Virus record (IMG/VR): IMGVR_UViG_3300030430_001099
Coordinates: 1 to 29,856 of that record
Length of the DNA: 29,856 nt
Direction: 5' to 3' (one strand)
Origin: a virus
Position numbers and translations under genes: made by a program. A model generated the notes under the pieces. It saw only the letters and a program-made list of their open reading frames with translations. It had not been told where the DNA came from and did no database searches. This document shows, in pieces, positions 12,902 to 23,155 of the stretch (within the stretch, counting starts at the first letter, position 1; each line of letters starts with the position of its first letter).

Positions 12902-14632
12902 TTAAATTGTGTAGATTTTTACTGCTTTTTCTTTACCTTTAACAAAAATTGGCTCTAACTCTGTTGCTGTTCCTTGATATTTGCTTATAGTTGCTTCACC
13001 TATAACTAAATCTTTACCAACAGACTTACATGAGGACTCTAAACGAGCTGCTAGATTACAAGCATCGCCCAATACACTATATTCAAAACGGGACTGGCTT
13101 CCGATATTTCCTGCTACAACTTCTCCAGAATTTATGCCAATACCAATATCAATACCTAACTGTGCTTCTTGCATTGCGTGTCGTATCTGAAGGGCTGTCT
13201 CAATAGCTTTTTGTTCATGGTCTTCAACATCTACTGGTGCATTCCAAACAGCCATCATAGCATCACCAATATATTTATCTACCATCCCTTCATTAGCTTT
13301 GACCGCATCTGCTTGGATAGTTAAAGCTTTATTCATTATCTCAACAACTTCTTCTGGTGCTAGTTTTTCTGATAGACTTGTAAAGCCTCTAACATCGGTA
13401 AACATAATAGTACATCTTCTTCTCTCACCACCTAATCTTAATAACTCTGGATTCTTTTGTAGTCTAGCTACCTGTCGTGGGTCAAGATAAGTAGAAAACT
13501 GTTTCTTAATTTGCTGTCTAAGTTTAAACTGAGTTCTAAAGTTTAAATAGAACTGTTGAGCAGCAATCAAAAATAAACTTATCAGAGTCCATGTCACATC
13601 TATTAAAAGATTCTGTTGTATAAAAGACCAACCGAGATAAGCTACTCCACCAAAAATAGTTAAGGCTGAGACTAAACCTGTAGTGATACCCAAGAAACCA
13701 GTTAAGATAGCAACAAGTAAACCAGCTACTACTAAGATACTTAGCTCGGCAAACAAACGATAGTCTGGTATGTTAGGTGTTTCTAATAAAATAGACTCAG
13801 CTAGAGCTGCTTGAATTTTGTGTGGCTCTAACAAACCCACAGGGGTTGCTAATTGTCTCTGTATTCCTGCTGCAGTAAAGCCCACAAAAACAAACTTACC
13901 TTGCACATCCATTTCAGTTAGGTTAGTCTCTGGTGTTTTAACCCAACTAATCCATTTCTTACCTGTCGAGTCTGTCGAGATAGGCGGTATGCCTTTTACT
14001 CTTATCATTTCTATACCATTCTCGTTGGTTTTGATTTGATAAGTATTACCACCACCTAGTATCTTAAGAACTTCTGTACCAAAAGAAGCTACCCAACCAT
14101 CCGGAGTTTGTTGGATAAGAGGTATCTTTCTAACTAAGTTATCTATATCAACCGGCACTGACACAGCTCCTTGAGCAGAAGCTTGTTTTAAAATAGAAAT
14201 ATTTTCTAAGAATCCTTGAGCCTGAGTCAAACTAACATCAGGGCCTAAGATAACTGTCCCGTGTGTCTGTGGATATTTATTATTGTTTACTTCGGGCATT
14301 GCTATGACACTAGGAGCTAAACCAAGCATCTCAGCAAAGGCTTCATCGCCTCCTAGTCTATCAGGATGAGGAAAGAGTATTGTCCAGCCAACTCCTAATG
14401 CTCCTTGTTGTAGTAATTTAAGATGAATATCTGCTAAGGTTTGCCGAGGTAAAGGATAACCGCCTTGTTGGTCTATAAACTCTTCATCAATGTTAAGAAT
14501 AGTAAAGTAACCAGTAGGCTCTGGAGTCTTGACAAGGGCATCAAAGGTTTTGAGTCTTAGTATCTCCAGAGGAGGAGCATTAAAGACTAGAGGTAATGTT
14601 AGAAAGAATAATAAAAGACTAGCCCACTTCAT
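12902..14632 (-). CDS. CHASE2-domain class III nucleotide cyclase, 576 aa
   Basis: Likely an inner-membrane receptor making cAMP. An N-terminal signal/anchor (1-18) leads into a CHASE2 sensor (about 22-285; FDALVKTP, LNIDEEFI and GKFVFVGFT segments). Three membrane helices follow (about 293-312, 314-336, 342-362), then a cytoplasmic cyclase domain (about 404-576). Catalytic residues: metal Asp D413 (FTDVRGF) and D457 (KYIGDAMM), K453, S519 at the base-selecting position usually Asp or, in class IIIb, Thr, then N526 and R530. K453 plus Ser points to ATP rather than GTP. All key residues are present, so it looks active. Its start overlaps the preceding gene (ATGA) and it is the last gene of the minus operon. 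CHASE2 cyclases next to FecR proteins are familiar in bacteria, not in phages. Confidence 0.92.
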   Translation of the reverse strand: MKWASLLLFFLTLPLVFNAPPLEILRLKTFDALVKTPEPTGYFTILNIDEEFIDQQGGYPLPRQTLADIHLKLLQQGALGVGWTILFPHPDRLGGDEAFAEMLGLAPSVIAMPEVNNNKYPQTHGTVILGPDVSLTQAQGFLENISILKQASAQGAVSVPVDIDNLVRKIPLIQQTPDGWVASFGTEVLKILGGGNTYQIKTNENGIEMIRVKGIPPISTDSTGKKWISWVKTPETNLTEMDVQGKFVFVGFTAAGIQRQLATPVGLLEPHKIQAALAESILLETPNIPDYRLFAELSILVVAGLLVAILTGFLGITTGLVSALTIFGGVAYLGWSFIQQNLLIDVTWTLISLFLIAAQQFYLNFRTQFKLRQQIKKQFSTYLDPRQVARLQKNPELLRLGGERRRCTIMFTDVRGFTSLSEKLAPEEVVEIMNKALTIQADAVKANEGMVDKYIGDAMMAVWNAPVDVEDHEQKAIETALQIRHAMQEAQLGIDIGIGINSGEVVAGNIGSQSRFEYSVLGDACNLAARLESSCKSVGKDLVIGEATISKYQGTATELEPIFVKGKEKAVKIYTI

Positions 14633-15081
14633 AAATCACCTGCTTGAGCCATAACATTAAGATTGTTTAAGATAATTAATCTATAAACTTTATTAGACCT
14701 TGCTAACATTTCTATGTTTGGATTACATAGATATACATAAACTCCAACACTTTTAATAAAGATTAAAGTTTTAAGACTAGGTCGGTCAGGAAGAAAAGGA
14801 TTACCTTCAATAGCATAACCTTTAATATTGACAGCTCTGTTAGTAGTGTAAATATCTAAAAACTGTAATAACAAAGCTTCTGTGTAGATAGGAGTAGGAT
14901 TATTAAACTCTAAATTAAACTGATAAGTTGGTAAAGTATAAGTAATATTTTCAAGCTGAGGCTTGTTGAGGTAAGGTGCTTTAGTAATCTGCCAATAAAT
15001 ATCAGGCTTATCCGGAAGATTGCTTGATAGTAATGGAAGAGTTACTACCACCATTAAGAGTAATAGTAATTGCTTTGCCAT
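14629..15081 (-). CDS. Small exported protein, possible divergent OmpA-like fold, 150 aa
   Basis: A clear signal peptide (MAKQLLLLLMVVVTLPLLSS) directs it to the periplasm. The mature part has the order strand (YQFNLEF), helix (YTEALLLQFLDIY), strand (AVNIKGYAIEG), helix (SLKTLIFIKSVGV), strand (YRLIILN). That order recalls the OmpA C-terminal peptidoglycan-binding domain, where the segments read IxIxGHTDxxG and LSxxRAxxVxxYLxxxGV. The residues that bind peptidoglycan are not conserved, so the resemblance is weak and may be misleading. Its first 74 nt overlap the FecR gene in another frame, and its stop overlaps the cyclase start. By context, a periplasmic partner of FecR and CHASE2 is reasonable. 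Confidence 0.6.
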   Translation of the reverse strand: MAKQLLLLLMVVVTLPLLSSNLPDKPDIYWQITKAPYLNKPQLENITYTLPTYQFNLEFNNPTPIYTEALLLQFLDIYTTNRAVNIKGYAIEGNPFLPDRPSLKTLIFIKSVGVYVYLCNPNIEMLARSNKVYRLIILNNLNVMAQAGDL

Positions 15082-16120
15082 CTTGTATAATTAAAACCTT
15101 GTAGCTGTTGTTGGTATCTAAATCTAATCTTACTGTGTCTTCTACTTGTCTTAAAAAAGTTAAAACAGTGTCGGTTACAAAAGTATTTACTTGAGTGTTG
15201 GGGTCAAAACCAAAAGCTGTGCCTTGAACATTAATATCCCCAGTGTTCAAAACATTTTGCTCTAGCTCATCTATTTCTTCTATAATACTTAAAAGGTCTT
15301 CTAAGAAATTTACATCTAGATAGTTAATATCTAACTCAGTAAATTCTAAGTTATCTTCTGCTAAATAGTCCTGTTCTAGTTCGTCAAACTCTAAATAGTC
15401 TATATCTAAAATATTATCTGAACCTTCTGCTTGAGCCTCTTCGCTAACAAAGTTTGGGTCTTGTTTGGGTGGATTGACAATCAACATATTGTCAATAATA
15501 TCTAGAGTCAAGTCTAAGATAACAGGACTACTAGGTGCCGACTCAAACAACTCAACTGTAGTAGCTTGGTAGGGCTTGTTGAGAACTACTTGTCCTACTA
15601 AAGTAGAAACTACTATTTCACCAGAAGCGATACCCTGCTCATCAGGTAGTAGGATTATCAAAGACCTACCTAGTTCATCGACAGTAACAGTAAAGTCTGT
15701 GCCTCTAATACCAATGGTAGCACTAGGAGTTTCAATAGAAATGTTTTCTCTATTGATAGAAGCTAATTTACCAGTGATAAATCTAGCAGTACCACTAGCA
15801 AACTGTAGAGCCATCTTAGATTTAGATGGGTCAGGGTCATAGATAAATTCATCTATAACTAATTGTGAATGTTCAGTTAAACGAACTTGAGATTCGTCTA
15901 GAAAAGTAATGCCTATTCGACCATTAGAGGTCTCGACATTATCAAAACTATTAATAGTAAAGGCGAGAGCAGCAGTAAAGGGGTCTTGCTCCCTTACTAC
16001 TCTCCCTATACCTTTTAATTCTGTTATGCTTCCTATACTAGCAACTTGTGCTGCCTGAATCTGATTGTATGATACAGACAGTGCCATTATTGCCAGTAGA
16101 AATAATCTTAAGCCAATCAC
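15008..16120 (-). CDS. Exported FecR-domain protein with acidic 5-residue repeats, 370 aa
   Basis: A signal peptide (1-23, ending IQAA) precedes a FecR periplasmic domain (about 28-190). Typical signatures are ITFLDESQVRL, LVIDEFIYDP, FASGTARFITGKL and ETPSATIGIRGTDF (130-143). Next comes a Pro-rich joint (near 217), an acidic repeat region (238-277: a Leu every fifth residue) and a C-terminal beta segment ending ITIKQSSG. FecR domains transmit envelope signals or scaffold surface systems; unlike true FecR, this protein has no N-terminal cytoplasmic part, so it is fully periplasmic. The C-terminus recalls a curlin repeat unit, suggesting an anchor or nucleator for the neighbouring curlin-like protein; that is inference. 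The long overlap with the upstream gene (83 nt) is needed to keep the signal peptide. Confidence 0.88.
   Translation of the reverse strand: MIGLRLFLLAIMALSVSYNQIQAAQVASIGSITELKGIGRVVREQDPFTAALAFTINSFDNVETSNGRIGITFLDESQVRLTEHSQLVIDEFIYDPDPSKSKMALQFASGTARFITGKLASINRENISIETPSATIGIRGTDFTVTVDELGRSLIILLPDEQGIASGEIVVSTLVGQVVLNKPYQATTVELFESAPSSPVILDLTLDIIDNMLIVNPPKQDPNFVSEEAQAEGSDNILDIDYLEFDELEQDYLAEDNLEFTELDINYLDVNFLEDLLSIIEEIDELEQNVLNTGDINVQGTAFGFDPNTQVNTFVTDTVLTFLRQVEDTVRLDLDTNNSYKVLIIQDGKAITITLNGGSNSSITIKQSSG
15290..15409 (-). repeat. Eight tandem acidic pentapeptide units in the FecR-domain protein
   Basis: Residues 238-277 read as consecutive 5-residue units LDIDY, LEFDE, LEQDY, LAEDN, LEFTE, LDINY, LDVNF, LEDLL. 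Every unit starts with Leu and is rich in Asp/Glu/Asn with an aromatic at its end or centre. They differ from canonical pentapeptide repeats (A-D/N-L-x-x) because the residue two before Leu is Asp/Asn/Thr rather than Ala. The DNA has a matching 15-nt period. Confidence 0.75.
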
Positions 16121-16739
16121 TTGCTAAAGTTGAACTCTGTGTAATATTAAATGCTCGGCTGCTCCCTGTTTGGTCTAAATAAAAATAGCCATCAGCATAG
16201 CCGCTACCATTATAGACCACATTGTTTGAGTCACCATCTATATCTATATAAGATGTAGCTCCATCAATATCCACTGTGTAGTCTATGGTATTTTCATCCC
16301 CATTGACAACCCAGTCGAGGTCTAAGTATTCTGCTAAAGCATTTGTTGCTACATTTAACTCAAAGTCATTACTTGAGCCTGTAACATCAACGTAGTAATT
16401 ACCACCATCAGCACTATAAGTATCTGTGGGGTCTACTTGAATTTCAAAAGTATTACTATCACCATCAAATTCAAAAAAGCCTACTAGTGAATCTAGGACA
16501 ATGTCCCCGATAAATTTGTTGGAATCCCCAAGTTGATTAATATCTAAAGTCATAGAACCACCAGCTAATTCTAGTGCAGTCATTTGACCTGAGACAGCAT
16601 CAAGACCACCAATAAGATTGGAACCGCCTAGTTGTTCAACATCTAGGTTTAAGTCTGAACCAACTTGATTGATGTATATTTCATTATCGGCTTTAACTAT
16701 AAAGCCTAAGAAAGCTAATAATATAATTATTCTATTCAT
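16038..16739 (-). CDS. Curlin-like secreted repeat protein, candidate amyloid subunit, 233 aa
   Basis: A short signal peptide (1-17, IVKA cleavage) is followed by a low-complexity beta-repeat protein rich in Gly, Asn, Asp, Ser. Repeats centre on a G-x-x-N turn, often preceded by Gln: QVGSDLN (25-31), QLGGSN (36-41), QLGDSN (69-74), FDGDSN (91-96), VTGSSN (119-124), VNGDEN (145-150), IDGDSN (167-172), QTGSSR (190-195), STGNNG (214-219). From the third unit on they recur every 22-28 residues, with hydrophobic/polar alternation after each turn, as in curlin repeats (SxxxxxQxGxxNxxxxxQ). Two cysteines (C222, C233) near the end are atypical. It lies directly after csgG and overlaps it by 8 nt, making it the obvious secretion substrate. 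Repeat type is seen; amyloid formation is inferred. Confidence 0.8.
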   Translation of the reverse strand: MNRIIILLAFLGFIVKADNEIYINQVGSDLNLDVEQLGGSNLIGGLDAVSGQMTALELAGGSMTLDINQLGDSNKFIGDIVLDSLVGFFEFDGDSNTFEIQVDPTDTYSADGGNYYVDVTGSSNDFELNVATNALAEYLDLDWVVNGDENTIDYTVDIDGATSYIDIDGDSNNVVYNGSGYADGYFYLDQTGSSRAFNITQSSTLASDWLKIISTGNNGTVCIIQSDSGSTSC

Positions 16740-17550
16740 AACTCCAATATCTCCTCTCTATTCCTTGTTGTACTATTGCTAGTACACTTGCTTCTATCGC
16801 TTTTTGGAGAGCAATAGAAACACTTTCATTTTGTGTAACACCAGATTCTATTTCTACTAATTCTGTCCCCGCTTCAATAAACTTAAAGACATCATTAGAA
16901 ACCCCTACAGACAGGATAGTCTTTGATGTTAGTACTTCCATTAATATCTCACCGGTATTAACAGAAACTAATCGTAAAGAAACTGTGACAGTGTCCTCAC
17001 GATATTGACGACTCATGCCGATACCTAAATATCTAGCACCATTACCACCACTTTTTAGGTTCGTGTCATACGAGATGACTCCGCCTTGAACTAGTAGTCC
17101 GGCAAAGATTAGGGGATTAAGTTCAGTCTCATCCTCAAAATCTTTACGAGTTGTTCTAATTATTTGTCGTTCTTTTGTTAAATTATCTAGTCCTACTCTT
17201 TCGACCACAGTAAAGAATTGACCATCTGCAGCATGTTTAAAAGCCCTGATAAGTAAAGCATCAGGCGACTGTGTTATGGCTGAACTAAACAAAGCAAAGG
17301 TACTATTACTCTTTCTTTGTCCTGTTAAATCTGTAAAACTATTAGGATAAATAGCAATAGTCGGCTTAATTCTAGCCGGTTTTAAATTTTTTAATTCTTC
17401 TGACTGTAACTCTAATACGGTACTTGGTCTTTTCTTGGAATAAGCTCCTATGACATTCTCATCTAAAAGAGAACTGTGTCTAAGACTTGAACAACTAGAA
17501 AGTAAAAGAACCGATAGGAACAGTAATCTCTGTAACATTCCCCTCTGCAT
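16732..17550 (-). CDS. csgG: CsgG curli-type outer-membrane secretion channel, 272 aa
   Basis: CsgG forms a nonameric outer-membrane pore that exports curli subunits. A lipoprotein signal ends LLLSSC with C20 as the lipidated residue. Family signatures run through the protein: LTGQRK (75-80), VVERVGLDNL then ERQIIR, GGNGARYLGIG, NTGEILMEVLTSKTI and a C-terminal AIEASVLAIVQQGIER. The length (272) matches E. coli CsgG (277), so it looks complete. In the constriction loop after TGQRK, F88 aligns with E. coli Phe56, but the Asn55 and Tyr51 positions differ. A second start at Met5 is possible. The first 56 nt overlap csgF. It is followed immediately by its probable substrate. Confidence 0.93.
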   Translation of the reverse strand: MQRGMLQRLLFLSVLLLSSCSSLRHSSLLDENVIGAYSKKRPSTVLELQSEELKNLKPARIKPTIAIYPNSFTDLTGQRKSNSTFALFSSAITQSPDALLIRAFKHAADGQFFTVVERVGLDNLTKERQIIRTTRKDFEDETELNPLIFAGLLVQGGVISYDTNLKSGGNGARYLGIGMSRQYREDTVTVSLRLVSVNTGEILMEVLTSKTILSVGVSNDVFKFIEAGTELVEIESGVTQNESVSIALQKAIEASVLAIVQQGIERRYWSYE

Positions 17551-17950
17551 CTGTAACCTTAAGTGTAATCATAGTACCATCAGCACTGACACTATATTCT
17601 ATGGTGTTGCCCATTAATTCTAAAACACCGAATGTGCTTGGGTCTTCCCCAAACAAAGCATCTACTAACTGTCTAGATAGTTGGGCATATATTCTAGACT
17701 CTAAGTTTCTAATAAATCTTGCTAAAGTTGTATTTTCTGCCTCTCTTTCAAGTTCTTCTTGATAGGCTTTGATTTCAGCTCTGATAGCTTCTTTTCTATT
17801 GAACTCTTGATTTTCAATAGTTAAGTAATGAGCTGAAGTATTTAGCCCACTAAAAGATGGTGATTTAAATTTATGTACTAATTCATCTCCAGCTAAAGTG
17901 TTACTAACACCAAGCAACAAAACTATAAATAACGTGCTTAATATTTTCAT
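17495..17950 (-). CDS. csgF: CsgF curli assembly protein, 151 aa
   Basis: CsgF is secreted through CsgG, plugs the pore with its N-terminus and couples export to fibre nucleation. The start at 17950 is chosen because GAGGAG precedes it and a signal peptide (1-20, SNTLA) begins there; a longer in-frame version from 17992 would precede the signal peptide. The mature N-terminus carries HKFKSPSFSGLN (F28-x2-P31-x-F33-x-G35), matching the CsgG-binding FRNPNFGG segment of E. coli CsgF. A helical part (51-100) and C-terminal strands (IEYSVSADG, ITLKVTDAEGNVTEI) follow as expected. It is 151 aa against 138 in E. coli. No csgE, csgC/H or csgD is visible. Confidence 0.9.
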   Translation of the reverse strand: MKILSTLFIVLLLGVSNTLAGDELVHKFKSPSFSGLNTSAHYLTIENQEFNRKEAIRAEIKAYQEELEREAENTTLARFIRNLESRIYAQLSRQLVDALFGEDPSTFGVLELMGNTIEYSVSADGTMITLKVTDAEGNVTEITVPIGSFTF

Positions 17951-17963
17951 TTCTATTATCTCC

Positions 17964-18251
17964 TCAATCTTTTCTTTGGTCTTTCTTTCCATCTGCCCTT
18001 GCTAATCTATCAACATCTACAGGCACACCCATAGCTGTCCGACACATTGTATCTATTCTTATAATATCGTTGTCTATTTGTCTTATCCTATCTATTAAAG
18101 CTACTATCATACCATGTTGTGTATCTAGTTTTTTATGTACATCTGCTATCAAATGATTAAATAGTTTCCACACCATCCATCCAGCAGCTACAGCAAAAGC
18201 TGCAGGAATCCCTACAGTTTCTAAAATGTCCATCCAAGTTTTCGTATTCAT
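17964..18251 (-). CDS. Small membrane protein with coiled coil, possible holin or lysis accessory, 95 aa
   Basis: One membrane helix (about 12-31, GIPAAFAVAAGWMVWKLF) is followed by a coiled-coil/amphipathic stretch (DVHKKLDTQHGMIVALIDRI) and a charged tail (ARADGKKDQRKD). The layout, one N-terminal membrane helix with a charged C-terminus in a short late gene, fits some holins, but holins are too diverse for sequence reading alone. Its ATG overlaps the stop of the upstream gene, and it is separated from csgF by 13 nt. It is common in marine podoviruses as a hypothetical protein to my recollection. Confidence 0.65.
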   Translation of the reverse strand: MNTKTWMDILETVGIPAAFAVAAGWMVWKLFNHLIADVHKKLDTQHGMIVALIDRIRQIDNDIIRIDTMCRTAMGVPVDVDRLARADGKKDQRKD

Positions 18252-18694
18252 TATCTACCTTTAACTAAACTCCCGCCAAAATACATACCTATAATAGCTG
18301 AGACTAAGTTAGTATCTAGTTGTGTAATTACCAAGCCCTGAAAAGTAATCCATTCAAAAACCTCTCGACCTTCTTTAATAAACCAAAAGCCCGGATTCCA
18401 GTTAGTATAGCCAACAGTCACAGAAACATCTGGATAGTAGACTGCTACTAGTTTAGGTAATAACACAATCGCAAAGACTGAAGTTAAAGCTATGATTCTT
18501 CTAGTCCAAGCAAAGCCTTTATCTTTTAAACCATGGTCTAAAGATTGTTGTCTTTCTTTCATGCCAAACTCACCACGGGTTATTAAAAGTTTTTGTTGTT
18601 CTGCTTTAGCCTTTCGACTCTCAGCCCAGACACTCATCAAACCACCAAGAACTGTGGAGGCCAACATAGTTATTATTTCAAACGGGAAACCCAT
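18251..18694 (-). CDS. Membrane protein, 147 aa, possible holin-like lysis protein
   Basis: Three hydrophobic segments are visible: 5-23 (FEIITMLASTVLGGLMSVW), about 66-86 (RIIALTSVFAIVLLPKLVAV) and about 118-143 (FQGLVITQLDTNLV then AIIGMYFGGSL). They are separated by a charged helical linker (ESRKAKAEQQKLL) and a Trp-rich loop (NWNPGFWF). A late-region membrane protein of this size next to another small membrane protein suggests lysis, but the family is often only called a phage membrane protein. It overlaps the genes on both sides (TAATG upstream, ATG/stop downstream). Confidence 0.7.
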   Translation of the reverse strand: MGFPFEIITMLASTVLGGLMSVWAESRKAKAEQQKLLITRGEFGMKERQQSLDHGLKDKGFAWTRRIIALTSVFAIVLLPKLVAVYYPDVSVTVGYTNWNPGFWFIKEGREVFEWITFQGLVITQLDTNLVSAIIGMYFGGSLVKGR

Positions 18695-18847: not shown

Positions 18848-21800
18848 TTAATTATTTAATAATTTAAACATCTCTTCAGATGTTGTGCCAGTAGGAAAAT
18901 CTTTTTCACTTATTTTTAAAGCTCTTTTAATTAAACTATCATCATTATAAAAAGCAGCATTTTCAGGATTATTTTCTCTATTAATAATAGCTCTTAACAA
19001 ACCTTCCATACCTTTTTGTTTATACAAATCCGAACCTTCTTTTAAATATCCAATAGTATCTGGGTTTTCTATTTCTGCTCTTTTTAATCTTTCTTGTTTT
19101 GTGCCTGTTCTTCCTCCACCTAAGTATTCTAGTAAAGCATAGTCTATAGCTTCATCTTTAAAAGAAGCATATCTATTTAATTTAGTATTCATGTCTCTAA
19201 CAATAGCTCTCATTCCTGCTTCTGGGGTATCAAAAACTACAAAAGGTCTTTTTCTATTTTCTGCATAAAACTGTCCTGTTTCTCCTGCATACCCTTGACC
19301 TTTTTCAATATTACCGGGATTGTTATACCTAATAACATCACCGCCCTCAGCAAAACCTAACCGACTCATCTGTTCTTGATAAGGTTCACCAGTCAAAGGA
19401 TTGATACGGTCTGCGGGGTTCTCTTGAGTAAAAGGTACTTCTGGTCCTTTAACAATACCTCCAACAGTTTTTTGTAACCTTTTAAAAACTTGCTCAGGTT
19501 TTGACTCTTCTTCTTCCATAACTTTATATATATCATCATCAATAAGGACAGGAAGATTGCTAAGTTGTCTATCTATTTCCTGAATATCACTAACAATGTC
19601 GTAGAACTCGTCAAAACTTTTTGAGTTTTCTAATATTTGTAATTGTAAATCTTTTGTCAAACCTAAAGGTTGAAAGTTTCTTCTTTTACCTATGAAGGTT
19701 GCTAAGTCTTTTTTATTAAAACCAGAGTCTTTAATAAGTTCAAAAATAGGTAAGTCAAACATTTCGGCTGCTTCCGTTAGTCTATGTAGTTTTGAAAACT
19801 CTCGATAGTATTTTTGGTTCTGTTCTAAGTACTGATTAATAAAATCTTCAGCTTTTATATCAGGCTCAATAGCTCTGTAAAGATTGTTTCTTCTCATGCT
19901 TTTCTTTTTAGCAAAGTCACTAACTTTAAAAGAGTAAACATTTTCTAAGTACTCTTTATTCAATGGTTGTACTCCAAAGCCTGTTAAGAATTTGATTAAT
20001 GATTCTTCTTTGTAAATGTCTTGGTTAAATTTAGTTTGTTCTTTATCCCATGTGTCAGCATATCTTGAGATAGAAGATACTGTGCCGGGTTCAATAGACT
20101 TAGCTATGTTACTTAATAAGATAGGAAGATTATTTAGTAAACCTTCACTGTAGGTTTCGCCCTCTTCAAACCTTTGGGTTCTATCATAAGGATTAACCAT
20201 TAAATCTCCTTCTAAAGTTCTACCTCCTCTAATAAAATAGTTACTTAGTTGTTCTTGAATAATAGACTCACCTAAGAATGGTGAAACCATTTCATTAACT
20301 GTAGTATTTAAGACATCTTTTATAAAACTTTCTTCAGTATATTTTTCATCAGATAATGCTCTATTAACAAGAACTTGAAAAGGTTTTTTAGGAAAATCAA
20401 AAGCATCCCATGAACTTATATTACCAATAGCTGGTTCACCTTCTGGTGTTACTGTCACAAATATTCTAGAGTTTTGCATGTAATCTGGTAAGAACTTTTT
20501 AGCTGCTTCAACCTCTTCTTGACTTAAACCTGATAAAGCTTGGGAGCCTTTTTCTAGTGCTAAAGCACCTCCACCAGCAACTGCAGTAAAAGAAGCTAAT
20601 CTTCTTAATCCTCTTTCTAATTGAATACCACCAGCTTTACTATTACCAGCTCCTATTAATTGTTTACCTTGATTAACTTCTCTAACACCTCTAGTTAAAC
20701 TATTAACAGAGATTCTAACTGACTCAGCCATAAATGAAAAGAAACGACCAAAAACAGGAGTTCTTCTTAAATTTTTTAACATTTCAGGTACTAAATCATA
20801 ATTAGGTAAAACATCTCTAACAGTACGAGCTGCTTCGTCTTTTAAAGCCTCATCACTAAGTTTTAGTTCGTCTGGTAAAGCATTATTTAATCTTTTAAGA
20901 TATTGTTGCTCACCAAGGTACATATTAATTTTAAAGAAATCATCTTCAGCAATGTAAATATTTTGTGCTTTTTTATTAATACCACTATTTAATATTTTAA
21001 GTAAAACATTATTTGGTGCTACACCTTCTAAATCACTAACTAAACCTCTTAAATCTCCAGCAATAACACCTTTATTAAGAATCCCTCGACCTGAAAGTTC
21101 TTCATAAAACTTTTGAATTTCTCCGGGTTTTGTTTTAGCTCTTAAAACTTTAAGTGATTCTGATATTCTTTTAGGGTCTAAAGGATTAGTACCATTAGCT
21201 AATGACATTTGAAAACCACCAGCTATATTTTTAACATGAGTAGTATGAGACCAAACAGTTTTAGAAGACTGAGAAATACCTTTTAGTAAAGTTAAGTTTC
21301 TCCATAAAACTCCTCCCCAGTTATCTGCTTCAGTAAACGGTAAGTTTTTACCAACAGTAAAATATCTTTGAAGTTCTGGGGTAGTATATTGTCCAGATAG
21401 TTTACCAAAACCTTGAGGTATTTGTTTATTAAATATTCCTGTTTTGTTGCTATAAAAATAAATATTTTTACCATCATTAAATATGTCTTTGTGAAACTTT
21501 AAATCCTCAACAGCAGATGATAGCTTTGTTGCTGAGTGAATAAATTTTTCAACAGGGTTATCTATCTCGCCAAGTAAATTCCTAATAGGAGTTGGAATAT
21601 CTTTTCGGCCTTGAAATATTTCTTTTCTAATTTTATCAAACTTTACTAAACTACTGTTAAAATTTTGAACATCTTTTTTATTACCAATAATATCATTATA
21701 TTGTGCTTCAGCTCTTAAAATAACTTCATCGTCTGTTAGTTTACTATTGTTTCTTCTTATTTCACTTTTAAGATATTCTTTAGCTTCTTTAGCAACACTT

Positions 21801-23155
21801 TTATCTGGTGTGTAACCCGGTTGGCTGTAGAGTTTGTAAGACTTTCTGACATAGCTACCTAAGTTATCTTGATATAATTTTTTTTGCTCGTCTGTTAAAT
21901 AATCTGTTTTCGTCATTAAACGACTTAACTCATCTTGAGTTTCTCTCATCTGTCGAACAAAAGGTTGTATTTCTTTTGGTAAAGATTTTAAACTAGATTC
22001 AAACATAGTTTGTCTAGCTTTAGCTGTTTTAATATTTTTATAATCACTAAAAGCAACTTGATTTATTTTTTCTAATAATCCTTTTTTATTTCTACCTGTT
22101 TTAGAAACAACCTCATTAATAGCTCTATTTAAATTACCGGCAACATGATTAATAGTAGCATTCCATTTTTCTTTAGTATTTTCAGTTTTAAGAAACTTTT
22201 CATGCATCAACTCAGTTCTGCCACCTTGAGGTGTAAAAAGTCTACGAGCTATATCATTAGTATTTCGTAGTAAATCACTTTGACTAAATTGTAAATTAAT
22301 AGGTTGGTCTAGTTTAGAATCTAAAGCTTTAACATCTCCTTGACCTATTACTTTTCCCTCAGCTATATCTTTTTTTCTTTTAGATAATGCTAATTTTTTT
22401 TGTTGAGTATCTAGTTTTTTATAACCAGACATTGTATTAATAAAGTCAGTAGTTGCTTGTTCTCCTCTATTTCTAATTTCTGTAAGTTTTTTTAATAAAG
22501 GAGTGGAGGAAGCCTGTAAAGCTTTACCAGTTAAAGCAACAGCACCAGTTAAACCTAAACCCTCACCTAGCAGAGCTAATCTGTTTTCAAGTTCTGTTTT
22601 TTCTTGGCTAGAAGTTAAAGGGTCTAGTAGATATTTTTTGATGTCACCTTCTAAACCATCGTTTTCTTTAATCATGGAGCCAATAACTCCAGCTAAAGTT
22701 TCTTCAAAAGGATTGATAGATAATTGAGCAGCAACTTCACCAGTTGCAATAGTTTGTCCTATCTTAGTAGTTAAAGGAGCAACTTGTTGAGCTTTTTTAA
22801 CAGCTCCTAAAGCCTGTAAAGGTTTAGCAGCTTTACCGACTCCAACCATAGAACCAACAAAAGCTCCAATGTCTCTAGTAAACTCTAAAGCTCCTGACTC
22901 AGGTTCTTTAATAGCAGCGACTTCTCTTTCGCCTCTTTTAACCATCTCAACATTTTCAATACCAGCAAAAGCTCTGTAAAGATTTTGGAGATACTTTTCT
23001 GTTTCGTCTATCTCCTGTTGATTAGGATTGGTAACAAGTCTAGAAAGTTCTATAGTTTCTCTAACAACATCACTACCTGCACCTAAAACAGTTCTATTAA
23101 AGTTTTTCTTTTGCTCCTCATTAAGAAGATTGTACAGGTTCTGAATTTGTATCAT
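18848..23155 (-). CDS. Giant internal virion protein with C-terminal muralytic-type domain, 1435 aa
   Basis: At 1435 aa it matches the size class of T7 gp16, the internal-core protein ejected into the cell at infection. Most of it is helical and charged, with a hydrophobic, Gly/Ala-rich patch near residues 90-170 (GAFVGSMVGVGKAAKPL) that could insert in the membrane. The C-terminal 160 residues start with RYNNPGNI (1276-1283), a motif that opens lysozyme/transglycosylase-like domains in many phage structural proteins; GGGRTGTKQERL follows. It would make a local opening in peptidoglycan for DNA entry. It follows the 436-aa gene with 1 nt between. Ejection role is inferred from length and context. 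Confidence 0.8.
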   Translation of the reverse strand: MIQIQNLYNLLNEEQKKNFNRTVLGAGSDVVRETIELSRLVTNPNQQEIDETEKYLQNLYRAFAGIENVEMVKRGEREVAAIKEPESGALEFTRDIGAFVGSMVGVGKAAKPLQALGAVKKAQQVAPLTTKIGQTIATGEVAAQLSINPFEETLAGVIGSMIKENDGLEGDIKKYLLDPLTSSQEKTELENRLALLGEGLGLTGAVALTGKALQASSTPLLKKLTEIRNRGEQATTDFINTMSGYKKLDTQQKKLALSKRKKDIAEGKVIGQGDVKALDSKLDQPINLQFSQSDLLRNTNDIARRLFTPQGGRTELMHEKFLKTENTKEKWNATINHVAGNLNRAINEVVSKTGRNKKGLLEKINQVAFSDYKNIKTAKARQTMFESSLKSLPKEIQPFVRQMRETQDELSRLMTKTDYLTDEQKKLYQDNLGSYVRKSYKLYSQPGYTPDKSVAKEAKEYLKSEIRRNNSKLTDDEVILRAEAQYNDIIGNKKDVQNFNSSLVKFDKIRKEIFQGRKDIPTPIRNLLGEIDNPVEKFIHSATKLSSAVEDLKFHKDIFNDGKNIYFYSNKTGIFNKQIPQGFGKLSGQYTTPELQRYFTVGKNLPFTEADNWGGVLWRNLTLLKGISQSSKTVWSHTTHVKNIAGGFQMSLANGTNPLDPKRISESLKVLRAKTKPGEIQKFYEELSGRGILNKGVIAGDLRGLVSDLEGVAPNNVLLKILNSGINKKAQNIYIAEDDFFKINMYLGEQQYLKRLNNALPDELKLSDEALKDEAARTVRDVLPNYDLVPEMLKNLRRTPVFGRFFSFMAESVRISVNSLTRGVREVNQGKQLIGAGNSKAGGIQLERGLRRLASFTAVAGGGALALEKGSQALSGLSQEEVEAAKKFLPDYMQNSRIFVTVTPEGEPAIGNISSWDAFDFPKKPFQVLVNRALSDEKYTEESFIKDVLNTTVNEMVSPFLGESIIQEQLSNYFIRGGRTLEGDLMVNPYDRTQRFEEGETYSEGLLNNLPILLSNIAKSIEPGTVSSISRYADTWDKEQTKFNQDIYKEESLIKFLTGFGVQPLNKEYLENVYSFKVSDFAKKKSMRRNNLYRAIEPDIKAEDFINQYLEQNQKYYREFSKLHRLTEAAEMFDLPIFELIKDSGFNKKDLATFIGKRRNFQPLGLTKDLQLQILENSKSFDEFYDIVSDIQEIDRQLSNLPVLIDDDIYKVMEEEESKPEQVFKRLQKTVGGIVKGPEVPFTQENPADRINPLTGEPYQEQMSRLGFAEGGDVIRYNNPGNIEKGQGYAGETGQFYAENRKRPFVVFDTPEAGMRAIVRDMNTKLNRYASFKDEAIDYALLEYLGGGRTGTKQERLKRAEIENPDTIGYLKEGSDLYKQKGMEGLLRAIINRENNPENAAFYNDDSLIKRALKISEKDFPTGTTSEEMFKLLNN

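Follow-up and report, generated by a model that had tools for sequence, protein, structure and literature searches.

Curli modules of pelagiphages and the locus in the window

Curli genes are already known from pelagiphages. In 2020, csgF and csgG were reported in pelagimyophages and sibling capture was proposed as their role (PMC7029224), and in 2022 a complete module, which also comprises curlin, FecR and adenylate cyclase genes, was described in HTVC023P-type podoviruses and in myoviruses. This module is spread across 65 ocean stations, with metatranscript evidence, and the same paper discusses aggregation (credited to PMC7029224), superinfection and uptake (PMC9599517). Here we analysed such a module in a 29,856-base virus record, IMGVR_UViG_3300030430_001099, the whole of which is referred to as the window. 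The module (12902-17992, minus strand) consists of six open reading frames (ORFs):

17495..17950, minus strand: csgF, secreted pore cap or assembly factor (PF10614, 1.5e-14; phrog_35372, 2.4e-44)
16732..17550, minus strand: csgG, outer-membrane secretion pore lipoprotein (PF03783, 6.2e-50; lipobox LLSSC)
16038..16739, minus strand: curlin-like putative export substrate (degenerate curlin repeats behind a signal peptide; strongly acidic, net charge -31)
15008..16120, minus strand: FecR-domain periplasmic protein with a GTG start (PF04773, 1.5e-11; phrog_37870, 7.7e-79, full length)
14629..15081, minus strand: X150, small, lineage-restricted exported protein (found in 12/56 of the flank-complete loci defined below)
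12902..14632, minus strand: membrane-bound CHASE2-domain class III nucleotidyl cyclase (PF05226, 7.1e-30; PF00211, Guanylate_cyc, 3.2e-24)

From csgF to the cyclase gene, successive ORFs overlap by 56, 8, 83, 74 and 4 nt. The span 12902-17950 stops at the likely CsgF start, an ATG at 17950; the open frame extends to 17992. CsgF has the signal peptide MKILSTLFIVLLLGVSNTLAG, and, apart from CsgG with its lipobox, the remaining proteins begin with a hydrophobic stretch. The csgG start is the ATG at 17550 or that at 17538. Curated Pfam cut-offs are exceeded by all assignments except that of the curlin, and X150 has none. The ORFs, the Pfam matches and the catalytic residues of the cyclase confirm what an earlier note on this DNA had read from its letters, namely six minus-strand genes for CsgF, CsgG, a curlin-like protein, a FecR protein, an exported protein and an intact cyclase. 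That note was wrong in regarding the complete set, substrate and cyclase included, as undescribed: the set, together with the aggregation and superinfection ideas, is in PMC9599517, and the functional ideas put forward largely repeat published ones. The window module is the pelagiphage-type type VIII secretion (curli) set described in 2022, and its six-gene order was already visible in the GenBank records of HTVC008M and Melnitz. What we add is a bacterial operon of similar composition and a proposal, open to test, for how the components work together.

In the published pelagiphage layout (PMC9599517), as in the window, one or more small genes come first and are followed by csgF, csgG, curlin, FecR, an optional slot gene and adenylate cyclase, with no csgE, csgC or csgD. 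The difference lies in the slot between FecR and cyclase, which in the window holds X150 and not a second curlin. In Pelagibacter phage HTVC008M and Methylophilales phage Melnitz each of the five core genes has a homologue, in identical order but at 33-48% identity, and their slot gene is a second curlin, which in HTVC008M combines a PA14 domain with curlin repeats. The GenBank record of Melnitz contains two curlin-repeat genes (L002:5294-6310 and L002:3516-4235), one of them above the Pfam cut-off, though csgA/csgB are said to be lacking in this phage (PMC9004378).

The arrangement is strongly conserved among viruses. Searching IMG/VR with CsgG and FecR yielded 130 distinct loci once duplicates were removed, and 56 csgG loci were flank-complete, i.e. 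extended 1 kb or more upstream and 7 kb or more downstream; their choice rested on similarity to the query and they are mutually related, so that they do not stand for 56 independent events. The order csgF, csgG, curlin, FecR, (slot), cyclase holds in the window and across these loci. The co-occurrence of these genes, which the earlier note had proposed as a check, is borne out: csgF, curlin, FecR and a small upstream membrane gene were each present in 56/56 loci, and the cyclase gene in 53/56. The five core genes evolve under strong purifying selection, with ratios of nonsynonymous to synonymous substitution (dN/dS) of 0.04-0.18 (csgG 0.04-0.15, csgF 0.10-0.18). X150, the exported protein of the earlier note, is different. 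Since it is missing from close relatives, including a contig (L004) whose CsgG is 97% identical, and evolves fast (dN/dS 0.44-0.76), it is a dispensable, optional extra outside the module core. Its relatives share a DUF5658-like D..TT....E.NP motif, and DUF5658 itself was matched in two of them at 0.001-0.002, below the cut-off.

Module genes were also found on contigs (L178, L179, L180 and L181) in metagenome-assembled genomes (MAGs) filed as Flavobacteriaceae, Pirellulales and Woeseiaceae. These are probably mis-binned phage contigs.

The pore, its putative acidic substrate and the FecR-domain protein

On balance we lean towards explaining the locus as a type VIII (curli) secretion module of the pelagiphage kind, carried by the phage. 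Two parts of such a system, the CsgG pore lipoprotein and the CsgF cap, are present, and the profile of the window CsgG matches E. coli CsgG structures over the full length (4.8e-64). It is highly probable that, during infection, CsgG and CsgF would together make up a pore in the outer membrane of the cell.

A CsgG at 40% identity was also found in a 1,499-base record named Salmonella phage (OR851715.1), which is possibly a host fragment.

The acidic curlin-like protein would then, as we are slightly inclined to believe, be exported via the pore and assemble into beta-solenoid fibres at the surface of the cell. HTVC008M and Melnitz both have curlins homologous to it, and the invariant columns of the family are regularly spaced Q-x-G and G-x-x-N residues. 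The G-x-x-N count of the window sequence alone is only moderately unusual (reached by 236/20,000 shuffles), so the support for a curlin comes from the family and not from one sequence. Curlin_rpt was matched at E <= 10 in 16/30 family members, with a best value of 0.0067. The AlphaFold2 model of the window protein is all-beta, with repeated two-strand rungs and a mean predicted local distance difference test score (pLDDT) of 85. Two cysteines near its C-terminus, C222 and C233, are kept in at least 90% of relatives, and a disulfide-closed cap is possible.

The FecR-domain protein adjoins the presumed substrate and has a composite architecture. In the AlphaFold2 model a signal peptide is followed by the FecR domain (approximately residues 30-200), an acidic disordered linker (approximately 213-293) and a C-terminal beta domain (approximately 304-370). 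Foldseek matched the model to the surface-signalling domains of PupR and BDI_1681 (5e-5 to 1e-4), and the FecR domain was detected in 28/28 homologues scanned. The features of a FecR-type anti-sigma factor were not found: the protein begins with a signal peptide, FecR is the only domain detected and a cytoplasmic anti-sigma region is absent. Because the protein is exported, lacks that region and combines a disordered linker with a separate C-terminal beta domain, the model suggests an anchoring or sensing role, and a fibre anchor in preference to an iron regulator. A more specific version, in which the protein is no iron anti-sigma factor, its FecR domain sits in the periplasm, the acidic linker reaches into or through the pore and the C-terminal beta domain serves as cap, seed or anchor of the fibre, is tentative and, in our judgement, rather doubtful.

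FecR genes also occur near cyclases elsewhere. Outside curli operons, a CHASE2/cyclase gene lay within 6 kb in 16/73 FecR loci (the background rate was not computed), which suggests that the two form a functional pair. A quite unlikely but testable refinement is that the FecR protein is both anchor and plug of the fibre, with its FecR domain in the periplasm, the linker threaded through the CsgG/CsgF pore and the C-terminal domain seeding or holding the fibre outside; the CHASE2 cyclase would signal, by making cyclic AMP (cAMP), what state the pore is in. If true, this would be a new way to anchor curli and to sense secretion, common to the bacterial operon described below and to phages.

The cyclase, the host and competing explanations

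The cyclase of the window matches adenylate cyclases of the PDB (down to 8.7e-34) and its catalytic set is intact: D413 and D457 (metal), K453 and D523 (base-binding), N526 and R530 (transition-state). All six residues are kept in 25/27 aligned cyclases, the exceptions being contig L145 (base-binding Asp) and Melnitz. The Melnitz cyclase (L002:6326-8377) differs from that of the window in that Ser replaces the transition-state Asn, and it may be inactive or altered. The enzyme could sense, on the periplasmic side, the state of the FecR protein or of the export machinery, and make cAMP as a local signal, a step which we consider possible although we would not favour it. The phage would benefit through an altered surface of the cell that it infects, holding siblings close or rival phages out; some surface effect of this kind seems a plausible outcome, if a little short of an even chance. 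Fibres, cAMP synthesis and a benefit to the phage are inferences here.

The DNA polymerase encoded in the window has its best matches in the Pelagibacter phages HTVC115P, 103P and 104P (51-52% identity), which leaves SAR11 as a possible host, and no near DNA match to the window was found. We surveyed 79 SAR11-family genomes. In 2/79 a class III cyclase exceeded the cut-off, in both cases within a phage-module contig, and one further genome had a match below the cut-off. CsgG was found in the same two genomes and in a third (G005), whose 3-kb contig has the phage gene order. A cyclic nucleotide monophosphate (cNMP)-binding domain was present in 4/79. If the host belongs to SAR11, phage-made cAMP would meet no usual receptor in most hosts, and simple cAMP signalling is doubtful; the proposal of such signalling to the host, made in the earlier note, is weakened accordingly, as these genomes almost never have a class III cyclase of their own and mostly have no cNMP-binding domain. 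SAR11 genomes almost never have a CsgG of their own either. Phages that supply streamlined ocean bacteria with a secretion system missing from them would, as already proposed in print, alter the surfaces, and perhaps the aggregation, of cells that rank among the most abundant on the planet.

The idea that the module is native to SAR11 bacteria was considered and rejected, as phage genes lie on both of the module contigs inspected from SAR11 bins. In MAGs filed under the SAR11 family, the phage curli module was found on L338, L339 and L244; phage genes were seen on L338 and L339, and CsgG or cyclase matches in SAR11 bins can therefore be contamination.

Several results weigh against a fibre-exporting module. 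The curlin-like protein scores 14.9 bits with Curlin_rpt, below the cut-off of 20.7, and Foldseek of its model against the PDB gave no match at E <= 0.001. No match to CsgE or CsgC was found among the module genes. The FecR protein matched the "cell surface anchoring domain" of 5ix9 only at E 0.011, which the sequence profile search did not confirm, and, should the host be SAR11, most genomes have no usual cAMP receptor. By eye, endings such as NGGxxSxIxIxQ had suggested that the C-terminus of FecR contains a curlin repeat. Neither the profile comparison, which scored 16.2 against a maximum of 17.9 in the column-shuffled null, nor a Pfam scan supported this, and we retain it solely as a structural idea. 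Finally, the study which reported csgGF in Melnitz saw no clumping in cultures and preferred a role in lysis, as a lysis-timing pore (PMC9004378, 2022).

The last point belongs to a different explanation, in which the CsgG/CsgF pore does not serve fibres but is a gated pore or pinholin-like lysis timer, or an uptake channel, and the other genes are its regulators. The lysis role was put forward for Melnitz from gene neighbourhood and an altered CsgF (PMC9004378), and the uptake option was raised in PMC7029224 and PMC9599517. The neighbourhood in the window bears on it too. Replication genes (primase-helicase, DNA polymerase, Cas4-like exonuclease and both ribonucleotide reductase subunits) lie on the plus strand, while the minus strand carries virion and tail genes, a block which the six module genes close. 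The view taken in the earlier note, of a phage-borne curli export module with FecR and CHASE2 cyclase, is supported, and the module lies within the structural-gene strand block; late expression would follow from this position alone. Just upstream of the module are two small membrane genes:

17964..18251, minus strand: 95-aa protein with membrane and coiled-coil segments, directly upstream of csgF and kept in all flank-complete csgG loci
18251..18694, minus strand: 147-aa membrane protein that separates the module from the structural genes, with a hydrophobic segment at residues 61-79

The longer protein matches phrog_38283 (function unknown) at 9.9e-8 and is holin-like in appearance. The shorter one, judged by its position, is probably the "HK" gene of PMC9599517; that paper names the upstream gene a histidine kinase, whereas no kinase domain was found in the 95-aa counterpart by domain search. 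A bare pore would, however, hardly explain that the curlin-like gene adjoins csgG in 56/56 flank-complete loci and is under purifying selection, nor that Melnitz and HTVC008M have two curlin-type genes each. We consider the explanation by a pore without fibres unlikely.

Further upstream, at 18848-23155, a 1435-aa virion protein shows weak endolysin-type similarity near its C-terminus.

Alternatively, the module might mainly alter host physiology via cAMP, curli export being a by-product or a co-regulated trait. The preserved catalytic residues and the purifying selection on the cyclase gene speak for this. On the other hand, the SAR11-family genomes have class III cyclases above the cut-off only in phage-module contigs and rarely a cNMP-binding domain, the transition-state Asn is lost in Melnitz, and the cyclase is absent from 3/56 viral modules that retain the rest, which makes this explanation decidedly improbable. 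That FecR is an iron-responsive regulator of the module, as PMC9599517 suggests, agrees with the constant FecR domain and its fold match to periplasmic domains of anti-sigma regulators but is very unlikely for an exported protein with no cytoplasmic anti-sigma region; moreover, the annotations of HTVC008M and Melnitz show neither a sigma factor nor a TonB receptor gene next to the module. We retain the curli secretion module as the preferred explanation.

A bacterial operon and the comparison with known systems

The combination of curli genes with FecR and a cyclase is not confined to phages. Two Caulobacteraceae MAGs carry an operon csgF-csgG-curlin-curlin-FecR-CHASE2 cyclase (L176:7037-13094 and L177:7038-13058) with ordinary bacterial genes around it, which demonstrates that curli are joined to FecR and a cyclase in a bacterium too. 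In the CsgG, cyclase and FecR trees, these versions group with those of phages, apart from the other bacterial sequences sampled. The trees gave no firm branching order for myophages, podophages and these bacteria, and transfer may have gone in either direction. Neither FecR nor a cyclase was found at 18 other alphaproteobacterial CsgG loci in the stretches examined, two of which end at or just after csgG; the two Caulobacteraceae MAGs, at least, depart from this.

Among the systems compared, enterobacterial curli (csgBAC, csgDEFG) share the CsgG and CsgF homologues with the phage module. The latter differs in having no match to CsgE, CsgC or CsgD, in its acidic, divergent substrate and in the presence of FecR and cyclase genes in the operon. 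In the Clr pathway of Sinorhizobium meliloti, which runs on cAMP, the CHASE2 adenylate cyclase CyaD1 occurs together with SMc02177, a protein that has a FecR domain (PMC5498481). There, however, the FecR protein is a cAMP-regulated target, Clr is the receptor and curli genes are not involved, whereas the phage module has no known receptor. The Caulobacteraceae operon, with the same genes in nearly the same order, is the closest cellular counterpart found here. It differs from the phage module in its two tandem curlins before FecR, in the absence of a slot gene and of the upstream membrane gene, and in its bacterial flanks, and, given a carrier in culture or expression of its genes in E. coli, it offers a possible route to study the FecR and cyclase version of curli outside the hard-to-grow SAR11 bacteria.

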